Positions 981 to 61,099 of a DNA stretch of 64,000 nucleotides are shown here, piece after piece. This stretch comes from Saprospiraceae bacterium (lineage in GTDB: Bacteria; Bacteroidota; Bacteroidia; Chitinophagales; Saprospiraceae): assembly GCA_025055285.1 (NCBI GenBank), contig JANWXM010000001.1, positions 372,001 through 436,000 on the forward strand, written 5' to 3'. The notes beneath the pieces are model-generated. The model searched no databases. It saw only the letters and a program-made list of their open reading frames with translations, and was not told the origin of the DNA. The translations under genes were made by a program, and so were the position numbers. Numbering within the stretch: position 1 is the first letter of the stretch; each line of letters opens with the position of its first letter.

Positions 981-992
981 TGATTTACGTCA
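981..992. promoter_or_regulatory. Candidate CRP/FNR-type operator, TGAT-N4-GTCA
   Basis: A dyad GTGATTTACGTCAA lies between the divergent CBS operon and the REC-CRP gene: half-sites TGAT and GTCA separated by four bases, i.e. TGA-N6-TCA. CRP/FNR-family proteins bind this architecture (FNR consensus TTGAT-N4-ATCAA). It is centred about 81 bp before the REC-CRP start and 95 bp before the CBS start. Similar dyads occur at 60107-60118 and 61088-61099. The sequence is seen; its use as an operator is inferred. A weak -7-like box TACTTTTA lies at 1036-1043 for the plus-strand gene. Confidence 0.5.
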
Positions 993-1067
993 ACCCTTTG
1001 ATGCTTTTGGATACACGCCATTAAATAGCTTGCTGTACTTTTATCGCCGAAAAACCGGGGCTGACTG

Positions 1068-2114
1068 ATGAAAAAGAAAATTTTAATAATAGAAGATCAC
1101 GATGAGGTTCGAGAAAATTTATGCGAAATCCTAAATTTAAGTGGTTATGAGACTATTAGTGCTGAAAACGGCAAAAAGGGAGTGGAAAAAGCAATAGCCG
1201 AGCGCCCTGACCTCATTCTATGCGACGTAATGATGCCAGAGCTAGATGGGTTTGGCGTGTTGCATATTTTAAGTCGAAATGCCGCTACAGCAGATATTCC
1301 ATTTATTTTCTTAACTGCCTTAGCTGAGAAGAGCGATTTTCGCAGGGGCATGTCGTTAGGTGCAGACGATTACATCGTGAAGCCATTTGACGACACTATG
1401 CTCCTGCAAACCATTGAAGCGCGTCTTCAAAAGCATGCTCGGCTGAAGGAGGCTGCTAATCGCCAAAGTGGAGGTGGATTGGAGCATTTTATCAATGAGG
1501 CGCGTGCTATGGAGGCTATTCAGCGCCTCTCGGAAAATCGGGAAGTGCGCCATTATCGCAAGAAGGATTTTCTCTTCCAAGAGGGCGAGTATCCGCGTTG
1601 GCTCTTCTACATCGAGAAAGGCCGCGTTAAACTCTTCAAGACCAATGAAGAAGGCCGAGAATTTATCTTGCGGATCGCTAAAGAAGGAGAATTTTTAGGT
1701 TACTTAGCCCTTTTACGGGAAACGAAATACCAGGAGAGTGCAGCTGCTCTCGAAGACACGACGGTGCGCATGATTCCTAAAGAAGACTTCTTCGCCCTTG
1801 TTTACGGGCATCGCGATGTCAATGCGCGTTTTCTCAAACTTTTGGCGGGTCATTTGACTGATCAAGAGCAACAACTCATTGACTTGGCTTACAATTCAGT
1901 GCGCAAACGCGTGGCAACGACTATTGTGCATTTATTTGACCAAGGCTATCGCGAGATCAATATGTTGCGAGAAGACCTGGCTGCTATGGCTGGAACGGCG
2001 AAAGAAACGCTCATTCGGACGCTTACAGACTTTAAGAGCGAGGGCCTTATTGAGATTCGCGAGGGTGTAATTGTGGTGCTGAAGCCCGACAAGCTGCGCC
2101 ACATGCCAAATTAA
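1068..2114 (+). CDS. REC-CRP hybrid transcription regulator
   Basis: The 348 residues hold three domains. A response-regulator receiver (about 1-122) has acid-pocket E9/D10, phospho-acceptor D53 in 'LILCDVMMPELDG', T83 and K105 ('VKPF'). A cyclic-nucleotide-binding-like barrel (about 150-255) follows, then a Crp-type winged helix (about 275-340). In the cyclic-nucleotide pocket the CRP 'RSA' reads 'ESA', so classical cAMP binding is unlikely. Only two cysteines exist, both in REC, so there is no FNR-type Fe-S cluster. The recognition helix 'AKETLIRTLTDF' keeps E313 and R317, which correspond to the CRP residues that contact TGA half-sites. The signal probably enters by phosphorylation from an unlinked kinase. 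It is first in a plus-strand operon with the SET-domain gene (20 bp later) and xseB, and divergent from the CBS/UspA operon. Confidence 0.9.
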   Translation: MKKKILIIEDHDEVRENLCEILNLSGYETISAENGKKGVEKAIAERPDLILCDVMMPELDGFGVLHILSRNAATADIPFIFLTALAEKSDFRRGMSLGADDYIVKPFDDTMLLQTIEARLQKHARLKEAANRQSGGGLEHFINEARAMEAIQRLSENREVRHYRKKDFLFQEGEYPRWLFYIEKGRVKLFKTNEEGREFILRIAKEGEFLGYLALLRETKYQESAAALEDTTVRMIPKEDFFALVYGHRDVNARFLKLLAGHLTDQEQQLIDLAYNSVRKRVATTIVHLFDQGYREINMLREDLAAMAGTAKETLIRTLTDFKSEGLIEIREGVIVVLKPDKLRHMPN

Positions 2115-2134
2115 TTCAAAAAGAGGAGTGAATT

Positions 2135-2521
2135 ATGTCTCTCCTGCAAGCACCTATTTTCGTTGCTCCCTCCGACGTGCACGGCTACGGCGTGTTTGCT
2201 GCTGCACCTTTGGCTGCAGGCTCAATTATCGAAATATGTCCCGTATTGCTCTTTCCTAAAAGCCAATTGGCAGCGGTGCGCCAAACTATTCTGGACGACT
2301 ATTATTTCGACTGGGGCGAGGATGGCGAGTGGTATGCCTTTGCCCTGGGTTATGGCTCTCTCTACAACCACTCTTACGAGCCGAATGCAGACTACGGAAT
2401 GGACTTTGAAAATCGAGTTATTGAGATTTACGCCCTGCGCGACATCGAACCAGGAGAGGAAATCTTTATTAATTATAATGGCTCGCCTAACAATCGCGAG
2501 CCCGTATGGTTCGAAAAATGA
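2135..2521 (+). CDS. SET-domain protein (putative lysine methyltransferase)
   Basis: This 128-residue protein is a minimal SET domain. 'HGYGVFAAAPLAAGSIIEICPV' is the start of the fold, 'YGSLYNHSYEPNADY' carries the NHSxxPN cofactor/substrate motif, and 'PGEEIFINYNG' is the GEE-x-x-x-Y closing motif. SET enzymes transfer methyl groups from S-adenosylmethionine to lysine; bacterial members of this compact kind have few known targets. Both signature motifs look intact. A GAGGAG stretch lies about 7 bp before the ATG. The gene follows the REC-CRP regulator by 20 bp and overlaps xseB by ATGA, so the three are probably co-transcribed. The substrate is unknown; the regulator or a DNA-associated protein is only a guess. 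Confidence 0.85.
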   Translation: MSLLQAPIFVAPSDVHGYGVFAAAPLAAGSIIEICPVLLFPKSQLAAVRQTILDDYYFDWGEDGEWYAFALGYGSLYNHSYEPNADYGMDFENRVIEIYALRDIEPGEEIFINYNGSPNNREPVWFEK

Positions 2522-2730
2522 AGCAAATTGATTCACTGCCGCGGACTTATGAGGAAGCCTATGAAGAATTGCAGCAAATTTTAACTGCTTTGCAACAGGA
2601 AGGCATACGCATAGACGACTTAGCTGTCTATGTTGAACGAGCAAAACAACTTATCCAATTCTGCCGAGCGCGGCTTAGGCAAGTAGAAGAGCGCTTGCAG
2701 CAACAAGAGGGAGAGAACATCAATCCGTAA
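2518..2730 (+). CDS. xseB: Exodeoxyribonuclease VII small subunit
   Basis: The 70-residue helical protein starts MKQIDSLPRTYEEAYEELQQ and matches XseB, which pairs with XseA to degrade single-stranded DNA to oligonucleotides. Typical features are the 'YEEAYEELQQIL' opening helix, the turn before 'IRIDDLAVYVERAKQLIQFCRARL', and a final 'LRQVEERLQ' helix. I chose the ATG at 2518 because its ATGA overlaps the stop of the SET gene (translational coupling); a frame-compatible GTG at 2506 is less likely. xseA is not in this window. Its 3' end overlaps the convergent response-regulator gene by 11 bp. Confidence 0.88.
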   Translation: MKQIDSLPRTYEEAYEELQQILTALQQEGIRIDDLAVYVERAKQLIQFCRARLRQVEERLQQQEGENINP

Positions 2731-3403
2731 AGCGATAGCCTACGCCGCGAACGGCATGGAAAAACTTTGGCCGCTTAGGGTTAGGCTCAAAGTACTTTCG
2801 AAAGTTTAAAATAAAGTTATCCACAGTGCGGGTGGAAGGGTACACATCGTACCCCCACACGCGTTGAAGAATCTGCTGCCGGCTAACTACCTCTCCTTTG
2901 CGTTCGAAGAAGAGCTTCAGAAGCATAGCTTCGGTCTTAGTCAACATAATTCGCTCGCCGCGCCAATTCATCGCCTCAAACGTAGTTAGGTTCACTGTAT
3001 TGCCTCCGAACACATATACGTCAGAGACTTCGCCGTGTATGCGCTGACTGCGTTTCAGTAACTTGCTAACGCGGAGTAAGAGCTCTTCCAGATGAAATGG
3101 TTTAGTCAAGTAGTCGTCGGCCCCGCGCTTGAGTCCAGTAATGCGGTCTTGTGCTAGGTCTTTGGCGGTAAGCATGAGTATGGGAACCTCTTCATCGCTC
3201 AAGCGTATCCGCTCAGCGATACTGAAGCCATCAATCTCCGGTAACATCACGTCTAACAAAATCAGGTCGAAATGCTGATGTGCAAACAGTTCTAGCGCCT
3301 GACGGCCATTTCCTGTACTCACCACTTCATAACCTTCCAGCTCTAAATTGAGTTGCAGCCCTTCGCGAAGCGATGTTTCATCTTCAACTAGCAAGATGCG
3401 CAT
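2720..3403 (-). CDS. OmpR-family response regulator
   Basis: The 227 residues contain an N-terminal receiver domain with E7/D8 in 'LVEDE', phospho-acceptor D51 ('LILLDVMLPEIDG'), the T of 'MLTAK' and K in 'LTKPF', and a C-terminal OmpR/PhoB winged helix (about 125-227) with 'LTKTEAMLLKLF' and 'VRGVGYRF'. It activates or represses transcription after phosphorylation by a histidine kinase. No kinase gene is adjacent. It starts 9 bp downstream of the carboxynorspermidine dehydrogenase-like gene and is probably co-transcribed with it. Its 3' end overlaps xseB by 11 bp on the opposite strand. Confidence 0.9.
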   Translation of the reverse strand: MRILLVEDETSLREGLQLNLELEGYEVVSTGNGRQALELFAHQHFDLILLDVMLPEIDGFSIAERIRLSDEEVPILMLTAKDLAQDRITGLKRGADDYLTKPFHLEELLLRVSKLLKRSQRIHGEVSDVYVFGGNTVNLTTFEAMNWRGERIMLTKTEAMLLKLFFERKGEVVSRQQILQRVWGYDVYPSTRTVDNFILNFRKYFEPNPKRPKFFHAVRGVGYRFTD

Positions 3404-3412
3404 GTCCGTCGT

Positions 3413-4621
3413 TCAGTCCATTTCCAGGTCTATGTCGAACTGCTCTTGCCAAGGCAGTCCGTCCAGATTTAGGCGCTCCATAAATGGGTCAGGATCAAAT
3501 TCTTCAACGTTAAACACACCTTTTCCGCTCCAGATGCCCTGCAGGATTAGGCGTGCTCCAATCATGGCTGGAACGCCCGTGGTATAACTAACTGCCTGCG
3601 TACCAGTCTCCTCATAAGCTGCCTGATGCGAGCAGTTGTTCCACACGTAGTAGGTGCGCTCGCGCCCATCCTTGATGCCGCGGATTCGGCACCCAATACT
3701 AGTGTAACCAGTATAGTTTGCGCCCAGGCTTTCGGGAGCAGGCAATACTGCTTTCAAGAATTGCAGCGGCACGATGTCTACGCCCTTATAGCGAACGGGC
3801 TTTATACTTGCCATACCAATGTTTTGAATAACGCGGAGGTGCGTCAAGTACTCCTCGCTAAACGTCATCCAGAACCGCGCGCGCTTAAGCGTTGGGAAAT
3901 TCTTTACTAGACTCTCGAGTTCTTCGTGGTAAATCAGATACGATCGGCGAGGACCAATGTCGGGGTAGTTGATGTCTTTCCAAATTGCATGAGGTTCTGT
4001 CTCTATCCACTGGCCGTTTTCCCAATACTTCCCGCGTTGAGTGACTTCGCGAATATTGATTTCCGGATTGAAATTGGTTGCAAAAGGCAAGCCATGGCTT
4101 CCTGCGTTGGCGTCTACAATATCTAGATAATGGATTTCATCGAAATAGTGTTTGGCAGCGTAGGCCGTGAAGACACCCGTTACGCCGGGATCAAAGCCAC
4201 AGCCAAGCAGAGCCATGATTCCTTTCTGTGCATAGCGATCGTGATAAGCCCATTGCCAGGAATATTCAAATTTAGCTACATCCTTAGGCTCGTAATTAGC
4301 TGTGTCTAAGTAATGTACGCCCGTTTCTAAGCAGGCGTCCATAATGGGTAAGTCTTGGTAGGGTAGGGCAACATTGATGACTAAGTCCGGTTTAAACTTT
4401 TGAATGAGCGCGATTGTCTGCTCGGGGTAATCAGCGTCTAATCGCGCTGTCTTAATCTTCCGGCCGCCATATTTGCGATAGATGGCTTCGGCAATGGCGT
4501 CACATTTCTTTTTCGTTCGGCTAGCCAACAGAATATCGCCAAAAACCTCCCGATGTTGAGCACATTTGTAGGCAACAACGCGGCCCACACCGCCAGCTCC
4601 AATAATCAGTACTTTAGACAT
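3413..4621 (-). CDS. Saccharopine dehydrogenase family, probable carboxynorspermidine/carboxyspermidine dehydrogenase
   Basis: The 402-residue protein opens with a Rossmann dinucleotide motif ('VLIIGAGGVGRVVAYKCAQH'). The segments 'GCGFDPGVTGVF', 'LDIVDANAGSHGLPFATNF', 'YTTGVPAMIGARLI' and 'WSGKGVFNVEEFDPDPF' resemble bacterial carboxynorspermidine dehydrogenases rather than lysine-pathway saccharopine dehydrogenases. That enzyme condenses a diamine (putrescine or 1,3-diaminopropane) with aspartate semialdehyde and reduces the product with NAD(P)H, giving the carboxy-polyamine later decarboxylated by NspC. The identification rests on remembered family sequence. nspC is not in the window. A TACTTTTG box lies 32 bp upstream. 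The downstream OmpR-type regulator probably shares the transcript. Confidence 0.82.
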   Translation of the reverse strand: MSKVLIIGAGGVGRVVAYKCAQHREVFGDILLASRTKKKCDAIAEAIYRKYGGRKIKTARLDADYPEQTIALIQKFKPDLVINVALPYQDLPIMDACLETGVHYLDTANYEPKDVAKFEYSWQWAYHDRYAQKGIMALLGCGFDPGVTGVFTAYAAKHYFDEIHYLDIVDANAGSHGLPFATNFNPEINIREVTQRGKYWENGQWIETEPHAIWKDINYPDIGPRRSYLIYHEELESLVKNFPTLKRARFWMTFSEEYLTHLRVIQNIGMASIKPVRYKGVDIVPLQFLKAVLPAPESLGANYTGYTSIGCRIRGIKDGRERTYYVWNNCSHQAAYEETGTQAVSYTTGVPAMIGARLILQGIWSGKGVFNVEEFDPDPFMERLNLDGLPWQEQFDIDLEMD

Positions 4622-4652
4622 GCGTATCGTTAAATGAGTGTGCTATCGGCGG

Positions 4653-4660
4653 CAAAAGTA
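4653..4660 (-). promoter_or_regulatory. Bacteroidota-type -7 box before the carboxynorspermidine dehydrogenase gene
   Basis: Read on the minus strand the sequence is TACTTTTG, a full match to the Bacteroidota -7 consensus TAnnTTTG, 31 bp before the ATG at 4621. A TTG at 4684-4686 (minus strand) is a possible -33 element with a 23-bp spacer, at the long end of the usual range. Confidence 0.5.
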
Positions 4661-5002
4661 GACACTTCTTAGTTGACCTTGCGCAAGTTATTTTCACCAT
4701 AGCGACACTCTCAAGGAGGTCTCTACGCTGAGGAGAGGGTTTCCCTGCAGTTGCGTTTCTGTAGGCAGAAAAACTTAAGCATTTAGCTGCTTTGAGAGGA
4801 GGAAAAAAGTAAGGCTCGCTTAGATGAAGACGAGGTAAACTTTCGACTTTAGAAGCATGCGGTTCCTTTTGTAGGAGGATGCTTGCTTGTGCTATTGCCG
4901 TGCAACCATTTACTCTGCACTTCAGCAATTGAGGCGCAAGCAGTATTTATTGTGAGATGCGCACCCTTACCGAAAAGATGCTCAAAAATTTTGAGCTTCG
5001 CC
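4661..5002. other. Gene-free divergent region
   Basis: This stretch separates the minus-strand dehydrogenase from plus-strand rplS. Open frames here on the minus strand (for example 4614-4928) have no recognisable composition or family pattern and overlap the promoter region, so I do not call them. I found no tRNA or strong hairpin. Confidence 0.4.
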
Positions 5003-5032
5003 TTGTTTGAGCCTGTAAAAGTGGTACCTTTG
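5003..5032 (+). promoter_or_regulatory. rplS promoter (TTG-N19-TACCTTTG)
   Basis: A TTG at 5003-5005 and TACCTTTG at 5025-5032 are separated by 19 bp, matching the Bacteroidota -33/-7 promoter (TTTG and TAnnTTTG about 20 bp apart). The -7 box ends 34 bp before the rplS ATG. Confidence 0.6.
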
Positions 5033-5066
5033 CGCCTCTATTTACGAACGGAATAGTTTTTGAGTC

Positions 5067-5465
5067 ATGACGGAAAGAGAAGCAGTACAAATAGTTCACA
5101 ACGCCTTGCTTACCAAGCCAAACTTTCCAGAATTTAAAGCGGGCGATACCATCATAGTTAAATATCGCATTCGCGAAGGCGACAAGACACGCGAGCAAGA
5201 TTTTCGAGGAGATGTTATTCAGATAAGAGGACAAGGCTTGACCCGAACTTTTACCGTGCGCAAAATTTCCCATGGGGTTGGTGTAGAGCGGATTTTCTCT
5301 TTTTCAAACCCCAATATTGCCGATATCAAAGTGGTAAAGCGCGGTCGGGTACGCCGAGCTCGCCTTTATTACTTGCGTCGTCTCGTGGGTAAGAAGGCTC
5401 GCATTAAGGAATTGAAAGCTTTTACCTCGACTTCGGAGGTTTCTGCTGAGCCAGCTGAAGGGTAG
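5067..5465 (+). CDS. rplS: 50S ribosomal protein bL19
   Basis: The 132-residue protein is bL19 of the large ribosomal subunit, at the 30S-50S interface. The segments 'FKAGDTIIVKYRIREGD', 'RGDVIQIRGQGLTRTFTVRK', 'GVGVERIFSFSNPNI' and 'RGRVRRARLYYLR' form the family core. The C-terminal tail after 'GKKARIKE' is a short acidic, serine-rich extension common in this phylum. The gene is alone with its own promoter; trmD and rpsP, often neighbours elsewhere, are not here. Confidence 0.97.
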   Translation: MTEREAVQIVHNALLTKPNFPEFKAGDTIIVKYRIREGDKTREQDFRGDVIQIRGQGLTRTFTVRKISHGVGVERIFSFSNPNIADIKVVKRGRVRRARLYYLRRLVGKKARIKELKAFTSTSEVSAEPAEG

Positions 5466-5552
5466 TTCTTGCTCATTCCCAATGGATTGGCTGGTAAAGC
5501 ATCTTTTCTAGCGCATGCTTCTAAAAGGTTAGTAGAAGGCAAAGCGGTCTGT

Positions 5553-7187
5553 TCAAGGCTCTAGCATGAAGGGGTAGCGATAGTCTGTTGGAGGTACAAA
5601 GTTTTCCTTTATAGCACGCGGTGAGAGCCATCGGTAGAGGTTAAGGACAGACCCAGCCTTGTCGTTGGTGCCGGAAGCGCGTGCGCCGCCGAAAGGTTGT
5701 TGACCTACAACCGCACCTGTAGGCTTGTCGTTTACGTAGTAATTGCCTGCCGCATGGCGAAGTTTTTCGTCTGCTAACAGCAGGGCTGCTCGGTCGCGTG
5801 CAAAGACTGCTCCTGTGAGCGCATAGGGAGAGGTTTTGTCTGCCAATTCAAGCACGTCGGCATATTGATCATCATTATAGAGATATATACTCAATACAGG
5901 GCCGAAGATTTCTTCGCACATTGTCTCGTGGTAAGGATCATCTGTCAGCAAGACGGTCGGTTCAATAAAATAGCCTTCTGATTTATTGTAGTTGCCGCCG
6001 TAGAGAACTTGAATGCTGTCGGACTTTTTAGCTCTGGCGATATAGCCCGTAATCTTATCAAAGGCCTTTTCATCAATAACGGCATTGAGGAAATTGGTAA
6101 AATCTTCGGGATTTCCCATTTTAATGCTTCTTAGGTCGTCTAGAAGATGCTCCTCGATTTTTGGCCACAGGGAGCGAGGGAGATAGGCGCGCGAAGCAGC
6201 AGAACACTTCTGGCCCTGATATTCAAAAGCGCCGCGGGTGAGGGCTACAGCCACAGCTTTTGGGTCTGCTGAACGATGAGCAACCACAAAATCTTTGCCT
6301 CCCGTTTCGCCCACGATACGCGGATAGGAGCGATAGAGGGTGATGTTTTCGCCAATTGTTCTCCAGAGTTTTTGAAAAACGCTCGTGCTACCAGTAAAAT
6401 GCAGACCAGCAAACTGAGGGTGCTTAAAAACTACTTCGCCGATAGTGGGGCCATCGACGTAGAGGAGGTTAATCACTCCCGCAGGCAATCCGGCAGCCTC
6501 TAAGATCTCCATGATAACTGATGCTGAATAAATCTGCGATTCTGCTGGTTTCCAGACAACTACATTGCCCAGCATAGCAGGTGCGGTAGGTAAGTTGCCA
6601 GCAATGGAGGTGAAGTTGAATGGCGTCAAGGCAAAGACGAAACCTTCTAGCGGTCGCCAGTCTATCCGATTCCAAGTGTTGCGCACGCTAAGCGGTTGTT
6701 GCCGATAAATTTCTTGCATGAACCACGCATTGAAACGCCAGAAATCGGCTAATTCGCAAACGGCGTCAATTTCAGCTTGGAATGGATTTTTGCTTTGGCA
6801 CAGCATAGTGGCGGCATTCATACGCGCCCGATAAGGGCCAGTCAATAAGTCGGCCGCCTTGAGAAAAATGGCAGCGCGTTCTTGCCAAGGCATAGCCTCC
6901 CATTCAGCCTTTGCCTTTAAGGCTGATTCAATGGCAAGGTGTACATGCTCGGCCGTGCCTACCGAGTGATAGCCCAGCGTGTGCTTTAACTCATGAGGTG
7001 GACAAATGCGGCGTTGTTCACTGGTATAAACATGCTGACCTCCAATATACATAGGAATATCGCGCTCTATGCCTTTCAACTCAGCAAGCGCTTGTTTTAA
7101 TGCAACTCGCTCTGGAGTTCCAGGTGCGTAAGTCAGCACAGGCTCATTGCTTGGATGAGGGATGCGAGAAATACCGTCGAATGCCAT
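5553..7187 (-). CDS. pruA: 1-pyrroline-5-carboxylate dehydrogenase
   Basis: The 544-residue protein is the stand-alone aldehyde-dehydrogenase-fold enzyme that oxidises glutamate semialdehyde/P5C to glutamate with NAD+, the second step of proline catabolism. Seen are the cofactor region 'LTPFNFTSIAGNLPTAPAMLG', the general-base loop 'IVGETGGKDF', the catalytic cysteine in 'QGQKCSAASR', and the family C-terminus 'DKPTGAVVGQQPFGGARASG'. Length and sequence match the Bacteroidota form, separate from PutA-type fusions. It begins 4 bp after the coaD stop on the same strand, so the two share a transcript. Proline dehydrogenase is not in the window. Confidence 0.96.
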   Translation of the reverse strand: MAFDGISRIPHPSNEPVLTYAPGTPERVALKQALAELKGIERDIPMYIGGQHVYTSEQRRICPPHELKHTLGYHSVGTAEHVHLAIESALKAKAEWEAMPWQERAAIFLKAADLLTGPYRARMNAATMLCQSKNPFQAEIDAVCELADFWRFNAWFMQEIYRQQPLSVRNTWNRIDWRPLEGFVFALTPFNFTSIAGNLPTAPAMLGNVVVWKPAESQIYSASVIMEILEAAGLPAGVINLLYVDGPTIGEVVFKHPQFAGLHFTGSTSVFQKLWRTIGENITLYRSYPRIVGETGGKDFVVAHRSADPKAVAVALTRGAFEYQGQKCSAASRAYLPRSLWPKIEEHLLDDLRSIKMGNPEDFTNFLNAVIDEKAFDKITGYIARAKKSDSIQVLYGGNYNKSEGYFIEPTVLLTDDPYHETMCEEIFGPVLSIYLYNDDQYADVLELADKTSPYALTGAVFARDRAALLLADEKLRHAAGNYYVNDKPTGAVVGQQPFGGARASGTNDKAGSVLNLYRWLSPRAIKENFVPPTDYRYPFMLEP

Positions 7188-7191
7188 ACGT

Positions 7192-7671
7192 TTACAAGGG
7201 TAGGTTGTGTGTGTTAATTTTTACCTCTTTAGGCAGAAAGGGCGAAGCATCGCCGCCGCCGATAATGATTTCTCTGACAATCGTACTGCTGATATGGGAC
7301 ATGCCCGGTTGGGCGATTAGAAAAACAGTCTCTAGATTCCCTCCACCTACAATACGATTGATCTGGGAAATTGTCTTTTCGTAGTCAAAATCTGAGCTGT
7401 TACGCAGCCCACGGAGCAAGTAGCGGGCTCCTATGCGACGGCAATAATGTGCTGTCAGTTTTTGAAAGTGATCTACTTCGATGGTAGGATAGGGAGCAAA
7501 TACCTGGCGAAGCCACTCCAATCGCTGCTCCAGCGGAAACAGATATTGCTTAGCGCTGTTTACTCCTACGGCTACTACAATGCGGTCGAACAGAGGCAAG
7601 GCGCGCAAAACAATATCTACGTGTCCAATAGTAATTGGGTCAAAGGAGCCGGGAAAGACCGCTATTTTCAT
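7192..7671 (-). CDS. coaD: Phosphopantetheine adenylyltransferase
   Basis: CoaD catalyses the fourth step of coenzyme A synthesis, joining 4'-phosphopantetheine and ATP to dephospho-CoA. The 159-residue protein has the nucleotidyltransferase motif in 'FPGSFDPITIGHVDIVLRA', the substrate region 'RGLRNSSDFDYE', and 'ISSTIVREI' (ISSTxVR motif). I start it at the ATG at 7671; a TTG two codons upstream is also in frame. It is immediately upstream of pruA (4-bp gap). A weak -7-like AAACTTTG lies further upstream on the minus strand. Confidence 0.96.
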   Translation of the reverse strand: MKIAVFPGSFDPITIGHVDIVLRALPLFDRIVVAVGVNSAKQYLFPLEQRLEWLRQVFAPYPTIEVDHFQKLTAHYCRRIGARYLLRGLRNSSDFDYEKTISQINRIVGGGNLETVFLIAQPGMSHISSTIVREIIIGGGDASPFLPKEVKINTHNLPL

Positions 7672-7930
7672 GTACAAGGTGAGTTGACGGGGCGAAATTC
7701 CAGCTCCTTGTTCGCTTTACCTAAGGTCGAGCAAAGTTTTTGGTAAGGAGGCGATGAATTCCTCTAATCAGCGTTCTCGTAGTAGGGTGACTCATGTTTC
7801 AACAACCAGCCATTCTTTTTGCGAACTTTGTTCCAAAAGTAAGGCGCTGGATTTTGCACTATAATAGGATTGAAAACTCGCAGAGTAGCTCTATCTTCTG
7901 TCGGTTTTTAGCGAAAACACAGAATTTTTT

Positions 7931-8983: not shown

Positions 8984-8992
8984 CAAAAAGCT

Positions 8993-27184: not shown

Positions 27185-27208
27185 TGCGAGCAGGATGATT
27201 CGAGTCAA

Positions 27209-43021: not shown

Positions 43022-45058
43022 ATGGCATTTAAGTTACACGCACCTTATCAACCTACGGGTGACCAGCCGCAGGCAATTCGACAACTAGTAGAGGGCATTC
43101 GGCGCGGTGAACGGGCTCAGGTGTTGCTTGGAGTGACGGGCTCGGGAAAAACGTTTACTATTGCCAACGTAATTGCTGAAGTCAACAAACCTACTTTGGT
43201 TTTAACTCACAATAAAACCCTGACAGCTCAATTATACAGCGAATTCCAAGCATTTTTTCCAGAAAATGCCGTTGAGTATTTCGTTTCGTATTATGATTAC
43301 TATCAGCCGGAGGCCTACTTGCCTGTGACTGATACTTACATAGAGAAAGAGCTGCAAATCAACGAAATGGTGGATAAACTCCGTCTGCGTGCAACAAGTA
43401 CGTTGCTCTCTGGGCGTCGCGATATCATTATTGTTGCCTCTGTTTCTTGTATTTACGGCATGGGTAACCCTGAAGATTACGCCACAGGCATCATTCGACT
43501 GTATCGCGGCATGAAGATGAGCAAAACGCAGTTTCTGTATGCGCTGACGGATAGTTTGTATTCGCGCACGGAAGGAGACTTTACCCGGGGAACCTTCCGC
43601 GTGCGCGGCGATACCGTCGACATTCATTTGCCGTATGCGGACTGGGGGTATCGAGTCCTTTTTTGGGGCGACGAATTAGAGGCCCTCGAAACCATAGACG
43701 TCCAGAACGGGAAGCGCATTGCTGAGGTTGATCAGGCCATCATTTTTCCCGCCAATCTATACGTGGCTCCTAAGGAGCGCCTGGCGGAAATTATTCGCGC
43801 TATAGAAGATGAGATGATTGCTCAAGAAAAATACTTTCTCTCTGAAGGGCGTCTAGTGGAGGCAAAGCGCATTCGCGAGCGCACGATGCTCGATTTAGAG
43901 ATGATTCGCGAACTGGGCTATTGCAGCGGTATTGAGAACTATTCGCGCTTTTTCGACCGCCGACCGCCAGGCTCGCGTCCCTTCTGTTTGCTTGATTATT
44001 TCCCTGAAGATTATTTAATGATCGTTGACGAAAGTCACGTAACCATTCCTCAAGTGCGCGGGATGTGGGGCGGTGACCGGGCGCGAAAACAGACTCTAGT
44101 TAATTACGGGTTCCGCTTGCCCTCAGCTATGGACAACCGCCCGCTTAGTTTTGAGGAATTTGAAAGTTTGATCAATCAAGTGATTTTTGTTAGCGCCACT
44201 CCTGGCGACTATGAGTTGCAGCAGACAGAGGGAGTAGTCGTCGAGCAATTGGTGCGACCTACAGGGTTGCTCGATCCGCCCATTGAGGTGCGCCCGTCGC
44301 TCAATCAAATTGACGACCTCTTGGAGGAAATTCAACGCCGCGTCGAACGCGGAGAGCGCACCCTTGTGACTACGCTTACTAAGCGAATGGCCGAAGAACT
44401 ATCGGCCTATTTGACAAAACTCAACATTCGTTGTCGGTACATCCATAGCGAAATAGAAACTCTCGACCGCGTGGAAATCCTTCGAGACTTGCGCTTAGGA
44501 GAATTTGACGTCTTAGTGGGCGTTAATCTCTTGCGCGAAGGACTTGACCTACCTGAGGTGTCGTTGGTGGCCATCTTAGACGCAGATAAAGAGGGCTTTT
44601 TACGCAACGTCCGTTCATTAACCCAAACAGCTGGACGCGCCGCTCGCAACGCCAATGGACTGGTCATCTTTTATGCTGACCAGATCACAGACTCTATGCG
44701 TCAAACCATTGATGAGACTAACCGTCGCCGCAGTATTCAAATAGCTTACAATGAAGCTCACGGCATCACGCCGCGAACTGTCACGCGTAGCCGAGAAGAA
44801 ATTTTGGCTCAGCGCAGTATCTTAGACATTCGAGGTGCCGAATCTCCTCGCTATTACGTCGAGCCAGAAACCCCCACACTTGCTGCCGAACCCATCGTAG
44901 CCTATGCTACGCGCCCTCAATTAGAAAAAATGATTGCTGAAACGGAGGCTCGCATGAAAAAGGCTGCAAAAGAGCTCGACTTTCTGACTGCCGCTCAACT
45001 GCGCGATGAAATGTTTGCCCTCAAAAAGCAACTGCGCGAGCGCTTCGGCGTCGAATAA
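43022..45058 (+). CDS. uvrB: Excinuclease ABC subunit B
   Basis: UvrB is the damage-verifying helicase-like subunit of nucleotide excision repair. The 678-residue protein has Walker A 'GVTGSGKT' (37-44), the beta-hairpin region 'SYYDYYQPEAYLPVTDTYIE', the DE box in 'LMIVDESHVT', helicase motifs 'VNLLREGLDLPEVSLVAILD' and 'QTAGRAARN', and a C-terminal UVR domain ('EKMIAETEARMKKAAKELDF') that contacts UvrC. Full length. It is followed 23 bp later by the TerB/DnaJ gene, probably co-transcribed. Confidence 0.98.
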   Translation: MAFKLHAPYQPTGDQPQAIRQLVEGIRRGERAQVLLGVTGSGKTFTIANVIAEVNKPTLVLTHNKTLTAQLYSEFQAFFPENAVEYFVSYYDYYQPEAYLPVTDTYIEKELQINEMVDKLRLRATSTLLSGRRDIIIVASVSCIYGMGNPEDYATGIIRLYRGMKMSKTQFLYALTDSLYSRTEGDFTRGTFRVRGDTVDIHLPYADWGYRVLFWGDELEALETIDVQNGKRIAEVDQAIIFPANLYVAPKERLAEIIRAIEDEMIAQEKYFLSEGRLVEAKRIRERTMLDLEMIRELGYCSGIENYSRFFDRRPPGSRPFCLLDYFPEDYLMIVDESHVTIPQVRGMWGGDRARKQTLVNYGFRLPSAMDNRPLSFEEFESLINQVIFVSATPGDYELQQTEGVVVEQLVRPTGLLDPPIEVRPSLNQIDDLLEEIQRRVERGERTLVTTLTKRMAEELSAYLTKLNIRCRYIHSEIETLDRVEILRDLRLGEFDVLVGVNLLREGLDLPEVSLVAILDADKEGFLRNVRSLTQTAGRAARNANGLVIFYADQITDSMRQTIDETNRRRSIQIAYNEAHGITPRTVTRSREEILAQRSILDIRGAESPRYYVEPETPTLAAEPIVAYATRPQLEKMIAETEARMKKAAKELDFLTAAQLRDEMFALKKQLRERFGVE

Positions 45059-52928: not shown

Positions 52929-52981
52929 GGTCATTTCGCTGTTTAGGATAAAAGAAGCATTTTCAGGAGGCAAAGATGAAA

Positions 52982-53010: not shown

Positions 53011-53048
53011 CCGTTTTTTCTTTGTAAATGACAAAGAGATATGTCTCT

Positions 53049-56000: not shown

Positions 56001-57398
56001 AGGCTCGCGAGAGGTGCTGCTGTCGGAGAATGTGACACTCAATGGAGCACACCCGTGCTGTTTGTTGGGCATAAAGCGCGCATTTGGTCGCCAAATAGAA
56101 TCTACGCGGAACGAGTCGGCAACACAGCCTGCCCGCGTAACGATACGCAGTCGTACCGTATCTAACCACAAGCCCAAGCTAGAATAACCTGTCTTATCAG
56201 GTGTTGTCCACAGGTAAGTAGCGGACGGCCCAGAAGCGGTAGACCCGTCGCTGAATTTCCACTCCCATTTTACAGCGCTCGCCGATGGTGAGGTAAACGT
56301 AAATAGAGTAGGGTCACTGCACGAATAGGTTGGCACAGCATTGATAAGGGCGCGAGCGTCTTCTACATAGACCGGTTTTGTGACTGTAGCTGTACAATTG
56401 CCTAGCCCTGTCACTTTCAGCGTAACATTCTGCAATCCCGGAGAGTTAAATATCACAACAGGGTTAACTTCCTGTGAAACAGCGGGTTTAGCATTAGGGC
56501 CAAACGACCAGTCGTAGACGCCGATCTCAGAGGTATTTTTGAATACCACAGGTGTGCCTAGACAGACGGTATCTTTTACGACAAAGTCTGCTAAGGGCGG
56601 GCCTACGCGTATGGTGCGGCTAACAGAAGCAGAGCAGCCGACAGCATCAGTAGCAACTAATGTCACCGTATAATTGCCGATTTGGTTGTAGGTCTGCGCA
56701 GGTGGGTTCACCAGATTAGAAGTATTGCCGTTGCCAAAGTCCCATTGATAAGTCAGCGTGCCCGAACCCCCAGACGTCGCATTCGTAAAAGTAACCGTTA
56801 GCGGTGGTTGACACGCTACGGGCGGCAAAGGTGTTGTAGTGAAGTTCACATCGGGTTTGATTCCTACGCGCACCAAGTCAGGGAAGACTTTAGTAACGTT
56901 GCACGAAGGATAATTGGTCGAAAGTTCCAGCGACACGGTAAAAATCCCATCCTTAGTATAAACGTGCGTAGGTGAGGCACCTGCTCCACCAGCTCCATCG
57001 CCGAAAACCCAGGAGCGCCCTAACAATTGGATGTCGATGCTGGCGACGACTGAGTCCCGGAATCTCACTGAAAGAGGCGCGCAACCACTATTCGGCTGAG
57101 CAACAACGAAGATTTCTGGTCTTGAGAACACAGTGATGGTTATTGTCCCTACAAGAGGACCGTTGGGTGTTTGGCGAAACTCAACAGCGTATGTACCCGG
57201 TTGAGTAAAAATGTGAATGGGTGAAGAAATGTTAGATGAGGCGCCGTCCTTAAAGTCCCAGAAGAAGGAAGTGGCTCCTGGCGGAGCGGAGAAACGGACG
57301 ACTAAAGGCGCGCAGCCTTTGGTTACGTCAGCTGTCTGTGCTAATGAAGCAGTACCCAATAGAAGTAGTGAGAAAACGAGTTGTGTGCGCATAAGCAA
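53049..57398 (-). CDS. Giant T9SS surface protein made of PKD repeats (1449 aa)
   Basis: After a short signal peptide ('MLMRTQLVFSLLLLGTASLA') the protein is almost entirely PKD-like domains. I count about fourteen by their 'W-x-F-x-D/N-G' cores, for example 'SFFWDFKDGASSN', 'YQWDFGNGNTSNLVNPP', 'VKWEWNFGDGAVSKEPNPTH', 'SSWNFGDGRSSNLANPTH'. One Ig-like unit ('FTWSPANLVLPPQN') and a linker precede the C-terminal gliding-type sorting domain 'APNAFTPNGDGDNDVFRLLA ... VILKGDLTLLR'. PKD arrays form extended rods; a SprB-like adhesin or matrix role is inferred. It is followed by a strong hairpin. Confidence 0.92.
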   Translation of the reverse strand: MLMRTQLVFSLLLLGTASLAQTADVTKGCAPLVVRFSAPPGATSFFWDFKDGASSNISSPIHIFTQPGTYAVEFRQTPNGPLVGTITITVFSRPEIFVVAQPNSGCAPLSVRFRDSVVASIDIQLLGRSWVFGDGAGGAGASPTHVYTKDGIFTVSLELSTNYPSCNVTKVFPDLVRVGIKPDVNFTTTPLPPVACQPPLTVTFTNATSGGSGTLTYQWDFGNGNTSNLVNPPAQTYNQIGNYTVTLVATDAVGCSASVSRTIRVGPPLADFVVKDTVCLGTPVVFKNTSEIGVYDWSFGPNAKPAVSQEVNPVVIFNSPGLQNVTLKVTGLGNCTATVTKPVYVEDARALINAVPTYSCSDPTLFTFTSPSASAVKWEWKFSDGSTASGPSATYLWTTPDKTGYSSLGLWLDTVRLRIVTRAGCVADSFRVDSIWRPNARFMPNKQHGCAPLSVTFSDSSTSREPIVRWTWLFDDGSLPLVQTSKNPVTYTFTAPGEYKVRLVIQNSAGCVDTSYAVLIEVGQPIPGDFTVDKTELCPGDTVFFTNLTNDPRVDAWHFSSENDRLWHCFQNKNPFWVYKSETGNLSVSLTTEYNGCFSTVTKDNLIRLKGPIAKIHYQTSCENEMAFTFTNRSEEATSITWYLGDGDSTTVDTTFTHQYTAPEDYTVILRAENPSTGCPVSYDTVTVHPRTLKAVFELPDTICGGQTQTLDASKSTGVNATCYKGYTWYFSFRRPERTDQPTFDIPLGPSGKQKISLVVESINGCRDTLEREIFIYNISANAAANKTRICLPTTVSFKDLSTADTTIVKWEWNFGDGAVSKEPNPTHTFSTLPQGSGGNYLIQLRVEDAYGCVSYAQVPIEIYKPISLISTIPSPARLCVGDSLRLEATDFTTEGSNLSWQWTFDNGKTASGQRVGTTYLSPGKFTVKMVYTEVATGCKDSALAVVQVQAPPNASFVSNVDNQKIICYPQNMVFTNTTTSDVPLSITWDLGNGVQVAGNQATAVFPKGVFTVRMVATTPFGCRDTVERTFKVVGPEGTFELDKTLICTGDSVVFRLKDTVSISSWEWSFGDGTIAGKVDPVSHRYTFRPPTNSTVARLVLKGEDDACSITVEKTINFSPIRANFTTGPLLCAGAPVSFINTSIEGDLSSWNFGDGRSSNLANPTHIFDKEGSYTVTLIVTDLPLGCRDTFKQVITIAGIPGLQVFGDTICSGDTAVIGIAAPSLPNATFTWSPANLVLPPQNASIVRVRPTQSTAFTVIIVDASGCRDTASVNVFIPSAYTGARNLDTIISKGDAVLLPVTFLPGYTFSWEPSNPGNPPLVRPDSTITYTLTVRDALRCTERKFTFRIQVVPERVYAPNAFTPNGDGDNDVFRLLADGDASLVKALFLRVYSRWGELVYEGRGPLNTTGWNGTYKGQPAPSDVYAWVAEIEFLTGKKVILKGDLTLLR

Positions 57399-57545
57399 GC
57401 GTTAAGATGTTGCCTCCCAATACATCGGCGGGCAGCAGGATTGGTTCGCTTTAAAGAACGCTCTAAAGTCCGACGTTTTTCTCTTTTGTGTCGAAAAAAA
57501 CGCCGAAGGGTTGCATTTGGTTAAAGAATGCACATTCCTCTTCGC

Positions 57546-58067
57546 TCAATTGTATGTAGCGCGCAAGGTGAGCGTTATGCGCGCAGGAATTTCGTCTGGC
57601 GTATTGCGCCGTAATCGAAGAGCCAAATCTAGGCTAAATCGTTCGTTGCGCACTATGCGTTTTAGATCAGCTAAGGAAGGAATCAACTCGAGCGTATTGC
57701 TGCGCTCAATAGGCGTAGGAAATCGATAGGCTGCTTCGATCGCTCCCTTAGGGTCGCTTTCCAGGTACACACGTAAAGATGCCTCCTCTACAACTGAAAA
57801 ATCGGCGTCGCCAAAAATGCCTCCCAATGAAGCTTGGCGCGTAAGGACGGCCTGAATATCTGCTTCTGTTTTGCCATTTTCGCGAAGCAAGGTTTGGAAG
57901 CGCGTCGGAATATCGCGAAAATAAAAATGGTGCGTCACAAAAGGGCCTAGGCCCGCCGCAATTACAAATTCCCGCTCATAGAGCAAGTCAAAGCCAGGTC
58001 CGATGCGGTCTTTTCTGCAGCTAACCGATAAGATGAGAAAAATGGCTACGGCAATACGCTCTCGCAT
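57546..58067 (-). CDS. Small lipoprotein, function unknown
   Basis: The 173-residue protein begins 'MRERIAVAIFLILSVSCRKD', a lipoprotein signal with the lipidated cysteine in 'LSVSC'. The rest ('FVTHHFYFRDIPTRFQTLLR', 'ADFSVVEEASLRVYLE', 'RFSLDLALRLRRN', 'IPARITLTLRATYN') is beta-rich with an ordinary composition; I do not recognise a family. It lies 147 bp upstream of the giant PKD gene and downstream of the 58149 gene, all on the minus strand. Confidence 0.6.
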   Translation of the reverse strand: MRERIAVAIFLILSVSCRKDRIGPGFDLLYEREFVIAAGLGPFVTHHFYFRDIPTRFQTLLRENGKTEADIQAVLTRQASLGGIFGDADFSVVEEASLRVYLESDPKGAIEAAYRFPTPIERSNTLELIPSLADLKRIVRNERFSLDLALRLRRNTPDEIPARITLTLRATYN

Positions 58068-58148
58068 ATGGTATGCTTCGTAATTGTTCGAAAAACAACT
58101 ACTCCATAGATGGCGCTTTGAGCGTCGGCGTTGCCTACGCCTCAGACA

Positions 58149-58571
58149 TTAGAATGTAATTCGATAGCCGCTAGCTTCTGCTCGGATAGGATATAGGCCA
58201 GCGCTTAAGATGATTTGTTTTAGCTCTGGCAGTAGTTGTTGAATGTGCTCAGGGAGGAAAAATGGTACAGGTAAGGGAAATACCCTCTTTTGGAAGAAAG
58301 TCTTTTCTGTGCACGGTGGCATACAGAGCTTCGGAAAAAATATTTCCAGACGTCCGTCATCGGAAACCTCTAAAAGAGCAGAGGCCCGTGCACATCTTCT
58401 GCTGGGCAAAGATGGCTTTCTCGTATGGTGCGTCGTGATGATGCGGCAAATGCCAACTCCAAGACAGTCACCTTGCGCTTGAATGACGCCAAACTCCACT
58501 TCAGCAGCCACTTGCCTGCTAGTGCCCTTGCGAAAAACCTCAGATGCGGGAAGAACGCTGTAATCGGTCAT
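58149..58571 (-). CDS. Conserved-looking hypothetical protein
   Basis: From the ATG at 58571 (140 aa; an ATG two codons earlier and a TTG at 58631 are alternatives) the protein reads 'MTDYSVLPASEVFRKGTSRQ' and continues 'EFGVIQAQGDCLGVGICRII'. It has no signal peptide or membrane helix. A proline-rich segment 'FPLPVPFFLPEHIQQLLPEL' lies near the C-terminus. Cysteines in 'GDCLGVGIC', 'RRC' and 'LCMPPC' could bind metal or form disulfides, but no known pattern fits. I do not recognise it. It follows the DUF5691-like gene by 88 bp, and the two may be co-transcribed. Confidence 0.5.
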   Translation of the reverse strand: MTDYSVLPASEVFRKGTSRQVAAEVEFGVIQAQGDCLGVGICRIITTHHTRKPSLPSRRCARASALLEVSDDGRLEIFFPKLCMPPCTEKTFFQKRVFPLPVPFFLPEHIQQLLPELKQIILSAGLYPIRAEASGYRITF

Positions 58572-58659
58572 ATGCATAAAACACTTATTGAATAAAAGGA
58601 TTATTCGATAGATAGTTTTCAGCCTTGCCAAAAATTGTGCCGACCTCTTCGGAAGGGCT

Positions 58660-59526
58660 TTAGCAACTTTGAAAAACTTCGTGCATTCGGCGACGTAGCG
58701 TTGCTATGTCGTGCGCGGAAATAATTACTTTGTTCCAGGCAGGAGGCTTGTCAAGGTGTGCAGAGAGAACGTCGAGTACTACCATTGGTGTAGTGCGCAG
58801 GGCTGCTGCGTGTAAGAGAGCCTCCCACAAAGGCGGAGGGTGAGGCGTGTATTGCCTTAAAGTTCTTTCTAATTGAGCAGCCCAAATAGGGATAATTTCC
58901 TTGGGCCAGGGATGAGTGCTATTTATCAGCACGTCAAGAAGAACACTGTTTTCTGTGTGCCAAGCCTGTTCGTTTTGCGCCAGGGCGAGTACATAGCACT
59001 TCCAGGTTTGATAAGGAAGAGCTGCCCAACGGACACGAACAGGAAGAGTAGGCGGAGAAAATTGGCGAGGGTATTTTTTCCACCGCAGCTGAGCAAAATA
59101 CCAGATCGCCCAGTCGGGGTTTTGTGTAGCAAGCCAGGCAGCCGTCGGTCCCAAGCTCTTCCAGAGAAGAGGCGTGCGCAAGGCTTCTCTCTTCGTAGCA
59201 ATTTCCATAACGCAGGGAAGCCATTCAGGCGGCAAATACCAATGGCGTTGCTGAAGCATCTCTAACAATTCAGGTATGACCCTATGAAAAATAGGATTTT
59301 GTAAAATTGTCGCTATAATAGGAATAATTTGCTCAGGACAGAGCGACCCTCTTATGGCGGGAGGCAGCAATACGAGTTTTGCCCGTACTCTAGGGAATTT
59401 AGCTGCTGCGCGATGCATTAAGTATGCAGAAGCAAGCATGTCTGGGGTTAGGCCTTTCTTCAGAACAGTTGAGGTTTGCTTGCCGCACATCGCAGCGTTG
59501 ACCACGTCTGGCCAAGGATCTTTCAT
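58660..59526 (-). CDS. DUF5691-like helical protein (short)
   Basis: The 288-residue protein is helical and rich in Trp, Leu and Ala. The segment 'WLPCVMEIATKREALRTPLL' followed by 'GPTAAWLATQNPDWAIW' matches the pattern I associate with DUF5691 (a 'WLAxQNPDW' box after a repeat-like helix). DUF5691 proteins are usually about 450-500 aa and lie with SWIM-finger, DUF5682, MoxR-AAA and VWA genes; here the protein is short and none of those partners is near. It may be a reduced stand-alone form. No signal peptide; cytoplasmic. Function unknown. The family call is from memory and not verified. Confidence 0.55.
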   Translation of the reverse strand: MKDPWPDVVNAAMCGKQTSTVLKKGLTPDMLASAYLMHRAAAKFPRVRAKLVLLPPAIRGSLCPEQIIPIIATILQNPIFHRVIPELLEMLQQRHWYLPPEWLPCVMEIATKREALRTPLLWKSLGPTAAWLATQNPDWAIWYFAQLRWKKYPRQFSPPTLPVRVRWAALPYQTWKCYVLALAQNEQAWHTENSVLLDVLINSTHPWPKEIIPIWAAQLERTLRQYTPHPPPLWEALLHAAALRTTPMVVLDVLSAHLDKPPAWNKVIISAHDIATLRRRMHEVFQSC

Positions 59527-60224
59527 AGGAGATGCGCTCTAGCAAACACAATAGGATTGCGCGAGGTGCAACCGACTTTCAGTCTCGATCTCTTGTTCAT
59601 CTGAGGAACAGGGCATCACACTCGCGTCACAAAGATAGGTTTTCAAAAGGAGAGAAGGTTAGCTAACCTAAGTAAGTCAGCTTAACCTATATTTCCTGCT
59701 CTTCGCCCAGCTAGTTGAATTTTATTTTTCATAGCACGTAGCCTCAACAGCATCTTAAGCGTTAAAACGCATTCTATGCGCTTTGTGGGATAAGCAAAAC
59801 AAATATATTCCTAATTTTCATGATCTTGTATGAAAACCAGGTAGTGAGGAATGCGAAGTACTAAAGTCTTCTTTCACTTCACAACTATAGTCGTGAGAGA
59901 CGCATTTCGACTTTCCTTGCACAACAATTTTTGATCATTTCGCTCTTTCACAGGTGTTAGTATTAAAATTTTGATAATCAATGTACTATGTAAGGTCTCT
60001 TAACTGAAGTTATGCGCCAATGCTTCGACGAACCCCTATCGACTTCTCGGCTAAAACAGCCTTGTGTTTTTCAGCGGCTTACTTTCAGGGAAGCTTTGGC
60101 TAATTTTGACATTAATCATTTTTTAAAGCGATGTTCCTCGGTGCGTAGGTAGCTCTGACTGCTTTATATTTACGGCAAAAACACCATAAATGTATAGGTA
60201 TCCTTACCTACGCGCCGGACACAT
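59527..60224. other. 698-bp A/T-rich region upstream of uspA
   Basis: No gene is visible. It contains a perfect 14-bp palindrome AGGTTAGCTAACCT (59656-59669), with a related half AGCTTAACCT nearby at about 59679, a TTGATAATCAA palindrome at 59971-59981, and a TGAC-N4-ATCA dyad at 60107-60118. The length of this spacer and its palindromes suggest complex regulation of uspA or an unrecognised RNA; that is inference. Confidence 0.45.
60107..60118. promoter_or_regulatory. Candidate CRP/FNR-type operator, TGAC-N4-ATCA
   Basis: TTTTGACATTAATCATTT contains TGA-N6-TCA with the extended half-sites TGAC and ATCA, the same architecture as at 981-992 and 61088-61099. It is centred about 112 bp before the uspA start. 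Operator function is inferred. Confidence 0.45.
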
Positions 60225-61049
60225 ATGAGGACAATTTTAGTTCCGACCGACTTTTCCAAGTGCGCTGAGAATGCGCTGCAAAGCGCCTTTGTATTGGCGG
60301 AGCGGACTAAGAGCAATCTAGCCGTCTTACACGTGGTATTTCCCAATGAAGCTTTGGATAACAACATTTACAACGCCTTTTGGACGGAGGAATATCTACA
60401 GGAGCGCAATCAGGCTCTGCATCAGTGGATAGAGCGTGTTCGTCAACCTGTTCGTTTCCGGCAGGTGAAGACAGAGACCATGTGTCGCGTTGGCTTTCCC
60501 GTGCCTGCTATTTGTGATGTGGCAGAAGAAATCAAAGCCGACCTTGTAGTCATGGGTACCACGGGTGCTACGGGCTTGCGAGGAGCAGTTCTGGGGAGTG
60601 TTGCTGCCGGTGTTATTACTCAAACGTCCCTCCCCGTTTTGTCCATCCCAAAACACCGCATCTTCGACCTTACCGTAAATGCTGTATTAGCTACTGATTT
60701 CCGCTTCGATGTAAGTGAAGCTACCATTCACGTCTTGCAGCAGGTTATTGCCGATATCAAGGGAAAGCTGCACGTACTCCACGTCATGACTCAACCAGAC
60801 GCTCCTCGGCAACCTGAAAAGGAGCGGCAATTAAGTGCTATCCTCAAGCCCATTCCTCACGAGTTCCACTATCTCCACGATCGGGACATCGTTCAAGCCA
60901 CCATCAATTTCATCGAATCCTTAGATGCGGGCTTACTCATCGCCGTAGCCCATAAGCATAGCATTTTCCATCGCCTATTTTTTGATAGAACGACGCGCCG
61001 ATTAGCGCATCGCGTTCACGTGCCGCTGTTAACGCTACATGATGTTTAA
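60225..61049 (+). CDS. Tandem universal stress protein (UspA family)
   Basis: The 274-residue protein holds two Usp domains. Domain 1 (about 1-145) begins 'MRTILVPTDFSKCAENALQS' and has the nucleotide-binding signature 'MGTTGATGLRGAVLGSVAAG' (G-x2-G-x9-G-S/T type). Domain 2 (about 150-274) begins 'NAVLATDFRFDVSEATIHV' and ends 'AHRVHVPLLTLHD', with its phosphate loop degraded ('AHKHSIFHRLFFDRTT'). Such proteins respond to energy, redox or hypoxia stress. It is the first gene of the plus-strand group with hsp20 and the CBS-pair gene; a dyad site lies upstream. Confidence 0.92.
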   Translation: MRTILVPTDFSKCAENALQSAFVLAERTKSNLAVLHVVFPNEALDNNIYNAFWTEEYLQERNQALHQWIERVRQPVRFRQVKTETMCRVGFPVPAICDVAEEIKADLVVMGTTGATGLRGAVLGSVAAGVITQTSLPVLSIPKHRIFDLTVNAVLATDFRFDVSEATIHVLQQVIADIKGKLHVLHVMTQPDAPRQPEKERQLSAILKPIPHEFHYLHDRDIVQATINFIESLDAGLLIAVAHKHSIFHRLFFDRTTRRLAHRVHVPLLTLHDV

Positions 61050-61087
61050 GTCTATGCCTGTTAACTGTTGAAGATTACTCTACAAAA

Positions 61088-61099
61088 TGATGTTCATCA
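61088..61099. promoter_or_regulatory. Candidate CRP/FNR-type operator, TGAT-N4-ATCA
   Basis: The dyad ATGATGTTCATCAT contains TGAT-N4-ATCA, close to the FNR consensus TTGAT-N4-ATCAA. It is centred about 66 bp before the hsp20 start in the 110-bp spacer between uspA and hsp20, suggesting that hsp20 has its own regulated promoter. Function inferred. Confidence 0.5.

Follow-up and report, generated by a model that had tools for sequence, protein, structure and literature searches.

The question raised by this locus is whether a short palindrome that recurs ahead of several stress genes is the operator of the regulator encoded beside one of its copies, and which signal such a regulator would serve. 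The window, that is, the whole stretch of 64,000 nucleotides analyzed here (positions 372,001 to 436,000 of contig JANWXM010000001.1 of a Saprospiraceae bacterium, assembly GCA_025055285.1), contains near its left end the gene of a response regulator receiver fused to a CRP-type protein (REC-CRP), divergently transcribed from a CBS-domain gene, and at its right end the universal stress gene uspA and the small heat shock gene hsp20. An initial sequence-only reading reported the dyad TGAY-N4-RTCA in the three spacers ahead of these genes and proposed that the fusion protein controls the stress genes directly and regulates itself; all three dyads are present where it placed them (Table 1). The dyads look like conserved predicted operators of a CRP/FNR-type protein. 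We consider it fairly likely that this protein is an activator, most likely the REC-CRP of the window, and that it works in a low-oxygen circuit.

The main evidence is conservation. The comparison with related genomes, which the sequence-only reading had named as a check, shows that the dyads recur at the promoters of REC-CRP genes, kinase operons, hsp20, and usp operons. Upstream stretches of 330 nt were scanned and only distinct loci were counted. Loci with short upstream stretches, with runs of N, or with an identical final 150 nt were excluded, as were short hits and hits below 45% identity for REC-CRP or 50% for ccoI, and four loci where the kinase ran off the locus were set aside. A strict dyad precedes the orphan REC-CRP gene, that is, one not linked to a kinase gene, in 41 of 43 loci. 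In the operons where a histidine kinase gene precedes REC-CRP, it is found before the kinase gene in 44 of 61 cases (the first ATG of the frame was taken as the kinase start codon, which may be wrong) and before the REC-CRP gene itself in 1 of 61, which provides an internal control. Strict dyads are also found in the promoters of 11 of 15 hsp20 orthologues but only 1 of 10 paralogues, of 24 of 33 usp operons, and of 27 of 30 ccoI genes, as compared with 1.5-3.7% in dinucleotide shuffles. Conservation is confined to the half-sites, as the four bases between them vary: the 47 orphan REC-CRP sites have 24 different N4, and the four larger sets have 24 to 35. The autoregulation of REC-CRP proposed from the window is thus strongly supported by these comparisons.

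The second line of evidence is the promoter geometry. Bacteroidota promoters carry TAnnTTTG at -7 and depend on a sigma factor distinct from that of E. coli (PMC7366714). In 42 genomes, the dyad followed at 22-25 nt by TAnnTTTG gave 281 matches, versus 18 for the reversed control. With the spacer left free between 18 and 48 nt, the four closest genomes yielded 59 sites, including at least one pair of identical sequence (G002:C48 and G054:C1); the spacer is 23-26 nt in 38 of them, 34-36 nt in 5, 43-47 nt in 10, and elsewhere in 6. The distances cluster near 24, 35, and 46 nt, which are steps of one helical turn, and the operators of class II and class I CRP-type activation are spaced in helical steps from the core promoter. 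At the orphan REC-CRP loci, a search with a slightly relaxed -7 box found, among 47 dyads, 14 with a box at 23 nt on the REC-CRP side and 28 with one at 45-46 nt on the divergent CBS side; since phased boxes occur on both sides, one operator can serve two promoters. All four boxes in the window are only near matches to TAnnTTTG. The spacing between the hsp20 dyad and its box is 23 or 24 nt in five relatives (L032-L034, L039, and L042), with the full TAnnTTTG, and TAnnTTTA ahead of uspA is retained in L247-L249.

Table 1. Predicted regulatory sites and the genes around them in the window (positions within the 64,000 nucleotides)
Feature	Position	Strand	Remarks
Two-CBS-domain protein	448..891	-	divergent from REC-CRP; a UspA gene comes next
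Near match to -7 box, CAACTTTG	927..934	-	CBS promoter; 46 nt from dyad
Degenerate second dyad	959..970	.	by eye; centre 22 bp upstream of that of the 981 dyad
Dyad TGATTTACGTCA	981..992	.	common to the divergent REC-CRP and CBS promoters
Near match to -7 box TAnnTTTG, TACTTTTA	1036..1043	+	REC-CRP promoter; 43 nt from dyad
REC-CRP regulator, 348 aa	1068..2114	+	receiver, cNMP-binding fold, Crp-type helix-turn-helix; D53, E313, R317
Dyad TGACATTAATCA	60107..60118	.	ahead of uspA
Near match to -7 box, TATATTTA	60165..60172	+	uspA promoter; 46 nt from dyad
Universal stress protein, two Usp domains	60225..61049	+	domain scan
Dyad TGATGTTCATCA	61088..61099	.	ahead of hsp20
Near match to -7 box, CAACTTTG	61124..61131	+	hsp20 promoter; 24 nt from dyad
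Hsp20 small heat shock protein	61160..61603	+	domain scan
Second two-CBS-domain protein	61670..62113	+	66 nt behind hsp20, possibly on the same transcript

Conservation and geometry were preferred to counts. The whole window holds six strict matches, three of them (27196, 43294, and 44026) beyond those reported initially. The dyads at 43294 and 44026 lie within genes. The one at 27196-27207 is flanked by two convergent genes, has no promoter box at a suitable position, and is probably a chance match. Six matches stand against 3.04 expected, and 6 of 100 dinucleotide shuffles reach as many, so the raw count proves little. The initial claim that the dyads are more numerous than chance would give holds for the intergenic sequence, with 4 matches versus 0.29 expected in 8163 bases lying outside a gene list picked from the open reading frame table (not an annotation) and none of 400 Markov simulations reaching 4, but the whole-window excess is not striking. 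The genome-wide scan suggested at the same time gave 173 dyad places, each on both strands, versus 116 for the pattern read backwards. Because the spacers had been picked after the fact, counts alone would not settle the reality of the dyads, and counting as the sole proof was dropped for conservation, the whole-window number not being significant. Chance, with short palindromes in AT-rich spacers singled out afterwards, has the modest window count and the three misplaced matches on its side; it is countered by the conservation and geometry of the REC-CRP and hsp20 sites, and as an account of the whole set it is highly improbable.

The degenerate dyad upstream of site 981 retains the TGAC half-site, and in the window genome one half only matches. 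Strict tandem dyads 21-23 bp apart occur in 5 of 44 promoters classed as those of orphan REC-CRP genes.

The REC-CRP protein has Pfam matches to PF00072 (1e-26), PF00027 (1.2e-21), and PF13545 (5.7e-15). It carries the cNMP-binding fold and Crp-type helix-turn-helix of the CRP/FNR superfamily, together with the receiver and phospho-acceptor aspartate of a response regulator. E313 and R317, singled out in the sequence-only reading as the recognition residues, are both present, and in the alignment to E. coli CRP they fall on its RETVGR helix. Of 108 REC-CRP proteins, 106 share this helix pattern and 107 have the phospho-acceptor motif. K312 occupies the position of R180 in the usual CRP numbering, a residue with a role in flank specificity. 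The only two cysteines, C19 and C52, are both in the receiver domain, so the FNR-type 4Fe-4S cysteine cluster is absent from the REC-CRP sequence. The CRP residues E72, R82, and S83, which contact cyclic AMP, were not found in an alignment of REC-CRP to CRP inspected by eye; GYLAL and YQESA stand where CRP has GELGL and QERSA. Nor does the protein fit the definition of FixK as a stand-alone CRP-type protein under FixJ control, as the receiver is inside the same polypeptide, and FixK2 is a distant match (4.4e-08). Judged by the defining features visible in its sequence, REC-CRP is neither a FixK nor an FNR.

Two further observations concern this gene. A SET-domain protein is encoded 20 nt behind it (2135-2521) and is possibly co-transcribed. 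A REC-CRP 79% identical to that of the window was found on a contig (L105) filed under a Thermoanaerobaculia metagenome-assembled genome, possibly a binning error.

A candidate partner for the receiver is encoded next to many REC-CRP genes: among 103 loci with distinct proteins, 60 have a histidine kinase gene directly upstream. For one operon kinase (L106, genome G042), a structure-sequence comparison gave FixL crystal structures as the best matches of the PAS domain (E 6e-31), and in the alignment to 1dp6 this domain keeps the residues expected of a FixL, namely the haem-histidine region and IIGIGR; the haem histidine and the arginine of IIGIGR have established roles in FixL. By eye, many Saprospiraceae operon kinases have a FixL-like PAS, and others a generic PAS. 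A related kinase was found at 1e-40 in 39 of 42 genomes of the genus. It is located near REC-CRP in G046, G043, G015, G011, and G003, and adjoins ccoI and usp in G020, G045, and G049; in G003 (L316), the kinase, ccoI, and REC-CRP are adjacent. In the window genome, G000, the kinase gene forms a separate locus (G000:C77:2654-4228) encoding 524 amino acids with a hydrophobic N-terminal part, and this predicted protein is likely the kinase of REC-CRP. A tree of the 103 REC-CRP proteins, built by a quick method with 37 of 100 inner branches starred and several long end branches, implies seven changes between the orphan and kinase-linked states, at least three of which are forced by well-supported branches. 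The Flammeovirga kinases (L160, L169, and L172-L174) appear by eye to contain an extra N-terminal receiver domain, and their operons are not preceded by a strict dyad.

Combining these data, we suggest that as oxygen falls the PAS histidine kinase would phosphorylate D53 of the receiver. The phosphorylated REC-CRP dimer would bind TGAY-N4-RTCA through E313 and R317 and recruit RNA polymerase, acting as a class II activator at hsp20, where the operator would be centred near -41, and as a class I activator at uspA, REC-CRP, and CBS, where it would be centred near -62. Site 981 would serve two divergent promoters, providing both autoregulation and expression of the CBS/UspA genes. A more general proposal, which we put forward tentatively and with slightly less than even confidence, is that Bacteroidota possess a one-protein version of the FixJ-FixK relay, in which a FixL-like kinase acts on a REC-CRP that controls its own operon, ccoI (an assembly gene of the high-affinity oxidase), and the Usp, Hsp20, and CBS genes, with the kinase gene separated and joined several times and the dyad usually standing before the first gene.

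The operators may be real and yet be read mainly by another member of the family, or by several overlapping ones. Five CRP-family proteins of the window genome exceed the Pfam cut-off. Three of the four others have SRQ helices without E and R, and the presence of a second TGA-type CRP (G000:C12:43074-47135; L065, L238, and L392), whose SREVISR helix has both residues (C12:46956), weighs against REC-CRP as the sole reader. This C12-type protein adjoins sulphur genes, and genes nearby have G..C-flanked sites. The SulP and MBL-rhodanese genes of the four closest genomes have GTGAY-N4-RTCAC in 7 of 7 sites, so that a second TGA-type reader is likely; the C12-type CRP looks like the regulator of a separate sulphur or redox regulon. 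At usp and ccoI the flanks differ from site to site, and some sites there are G/C-flanked too. In addition, eight genomes of the same order without a full-length REC-CRP still have a promoter signal (27 versus 3 in the control), as do seven with it (37 versus 9). Thus the dyad is not private to REC-CRP, and the presence or absence of this gene as the cause of the signal across the order was rejected, there being no difference. On the other side, only 7 of 115 REC-CRP, kinase-operon, and hsp20-orthologue sites carry both flanks, G and C, which in our view points to two specificities, the C12 type recognizing sites with G..C flanks and REC-CRP those with others. Moreover, dyads persist at at least one examined promoter in six genomes with no C12-type match at 1e-20: at REC-CRP and ccoI in G012 and G017, at REC-CRP, ccoI, and usp in G045, at usp in G041, at ccoI in G008, and at the kinase operon in G023 (G041, G045, and G017 being only 79-87% complete). 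Another main reader seems unlikely, and we infer that REC-CRP reads the dyads.

Somewhat unlikely as well, but the most serious rival, is that the regulator is correctly identified and is a repressor, or responds to redox state, nitric oxide, heat, or starvation. Usp, Hsp20, and CBS proteins respond to many stresses, and at a few sites the box is 7-12 nt away, a distance at which binding could block the polymerase. The kinase of the window genome, with its hydrophobic N-terminal part, also fits such a signal: its PAS matches FixL only at about 1e-12 and by eye keeps the histidine but has RPMGTGID in place of IIGIGRIV. As the FixL arginine is lacking and no dyad was found in the 8-kb stretch around the gene, oxygen sensing by this kinase is unproved. 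Other observations also weigh against a low-oxygen circuit run by REC-CRP. The -7 box of REC-CRP in the window lies at 43 nt rather than at the commoner 23. The dyad of the window uspA has no counterpart in the three nearest relatives (L247-L249), and this site alone may be a chance match. Seventeen of the 61 kinase operons have no dyad, including all five loci of Flammeovirga, the only cultured isolates recognised among the REC-CRP loci listed, where named loci come almost entirely from metagenome-assembled genomes, and fractions of this kind overstate independence because sequences within one genus are related; an independent-pairs test on the REC-CRP tree gave four pairs and was underpowered. 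In favour of activation under low oxygen are the phasing, which fits classes II and I, the presence of the site at ccoI, a cytochrome c gene, and genes of oxygen-using enzymes (named by eye), and the FixL-like PAS of the operon kinase compared above and, by eye, of many Saprospiraceae ones.

The proposed direct control of the stress genes fared unequally. Direct control of hsp20 by the dyad reader is well supported by the contrast between orthologues and paralogues, and the gene order hsp20-CBS is kept in L032-L034 and L040. For uspA, the claim stands for the operon found in the genus and not for the site in the window: as a conserved element the latter was rejected for the nearest relatives, and conservation was found at the operon level in the wider genus. 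No gene closely precedes the window uspA on the same strand, and the uspA dyad lies 118 nt ahead of the start. In many members of the genus, usp comes second in an operon with one to three dyads ahead of the first gene, and 9 of 33 such promoters have no strict dyad. The UspA gene behind the divergent CBS gene continues past the left edge of the window.

The usp operons show some features of their own. The first gene (L304:8124-8531 and relatives), which does not precede usp in the window, encodes a conserved protein of about 136-140 amino acids that ends in YREQ(D/E) and matches no Pfam or NCBIfam family. The promoters of L254-L257, L265-L268, and L270 have two strict dyads whose centres are exactly 22 bp apart, and those of L265-L268 and L270 also have a third, closer to the gene. 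G..C flanks surround the distal dyad of L255-L257, as though neighbouring sites were occupied by different CRP proteins.

Additional genes behind phased dyads, likely further targets of a dyad-reading regulator, were identified in a survey covering part of the matches listed, in six genomes and one kinase locus; of 43 promoter matches, a gene was called for 41, and 20 of these 41, picked by eye, were scanned against Pfam. They encode a cytochrome c, an Rrf2 regulator, thioredoxins, a peroxiredoxin, PaaA, a ferritin-like protein (Dps by eye), a fatty-acid hydroxylase, and an acetyl-CoA hydrolase. Most of the thioredoxin, peroxiredoxin, and ferritin sites have G..C flanks. Genes for the breakdown of aromatic amino acids have phased dyads in the window genome (G000:C2:95343 and G000:C66:86116-86214), with counterparts in G018, G002, and G054. 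By eye, they were named as 4-hydroxyphenylpyruvate dioxygenase (HPPD), tryptophan dioxygenase, homogentisate dioxygenase, and pterin carbinolamine dehydratase, and several of these enzymes use oxygen as a substrate. An S30AE ribosome-hibernation gene also stands behind a phased dyad (L383:187-504, G040), a further likeness to dormancy regulons.

Oxygen sensing and the regulator of the cbb3 oxidase have been little studied in Bacteroidota, as far as the literature searched shows. In Flavobacterium psychrophilum the cbb3 oxidase is strongly induced under oxygen limitation, and the part of that report drawn on here names no regulator (PMC9723704). For a CRP/FNR homologue of Saprospiraceae, a metatranscriptome study has suggested carbon sensing (PMC8510549). 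No receiver-CRP fusion in Bacteroidota was found in the open-access literature among the matches listed, as judged by titles and the beginnings of abstracts. The present data combine a candidate kinase, a regulator, a predicted operator at precise distances from the promoter box, and a list of putative targets into one testable circuit.

Several known systems resemble parts of it. The promoters share with class I and class II promoters of E. coli CRP and FNR the dyad half-sites, the E and R recognition residues, and the helical spacing, whereas the cyclic AMP contact positions differ, the FNR cysteine cluster is absent, and another sigma factor and -7 box are used. The DosR regulon of Mycobacterium is similar to the set of genes with dyads in gene content only: DosR is a NarL-type regulator with a different operator, and its regulon also holds a CBS protein and a ribosome-hibernation-like protein. 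Six Usp proteins and hspX are there under low-oxygen two-component control (PMC2914252). If oxygen is the signal here, the same Usp, Hsp20, and CBS set would be under low-oxygen two-component control in distant phyla.

FnrN has no receiver domain, unlike REC-CRP, but its anaerobox control of a small heat shock protein (sHSP) gene likewise involves an operator of the TGA-N6-TCA type ahead of both the sHSP gene and the regulator gene. In Rhizobium leguminosarum, TTGA-N6-TCAA anaeroboxes are present at the sHSP gene, at fixN, and at the fnrN genes; a reporter for the sHSP rises about 50-fold at 1% oxygen, an effect that requires FnrN, and FnrN is described as acting through a redox-responsive cofactor of its own (PMC11784457).

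The closest parallel is the FixL-FixJ-FixK cascade of rhizobia, which has in common with the proposed circuit a FixL-like PAS kinase (in the relatives), a TGA-N6-TCA operator, and a ccoI/fixI target; the FixK/FnrN consensus is TTGANCNNGATCAANG (PMC4999443). It differs in that the Bacteroidota promoters are of the TAnnTTTG type and the kinase of the window genome lacks the FixL arginine. The receiver and the CRP-type output here form one protein, the gene of which carries its own operator. With a FixJ-type receiver in effect fused to a FixK-type output, one protein would do the work of the FixJ-to-FixK relay, and what sets it apart from the known systems is this fusion in a single, apparently autoregulated protein.

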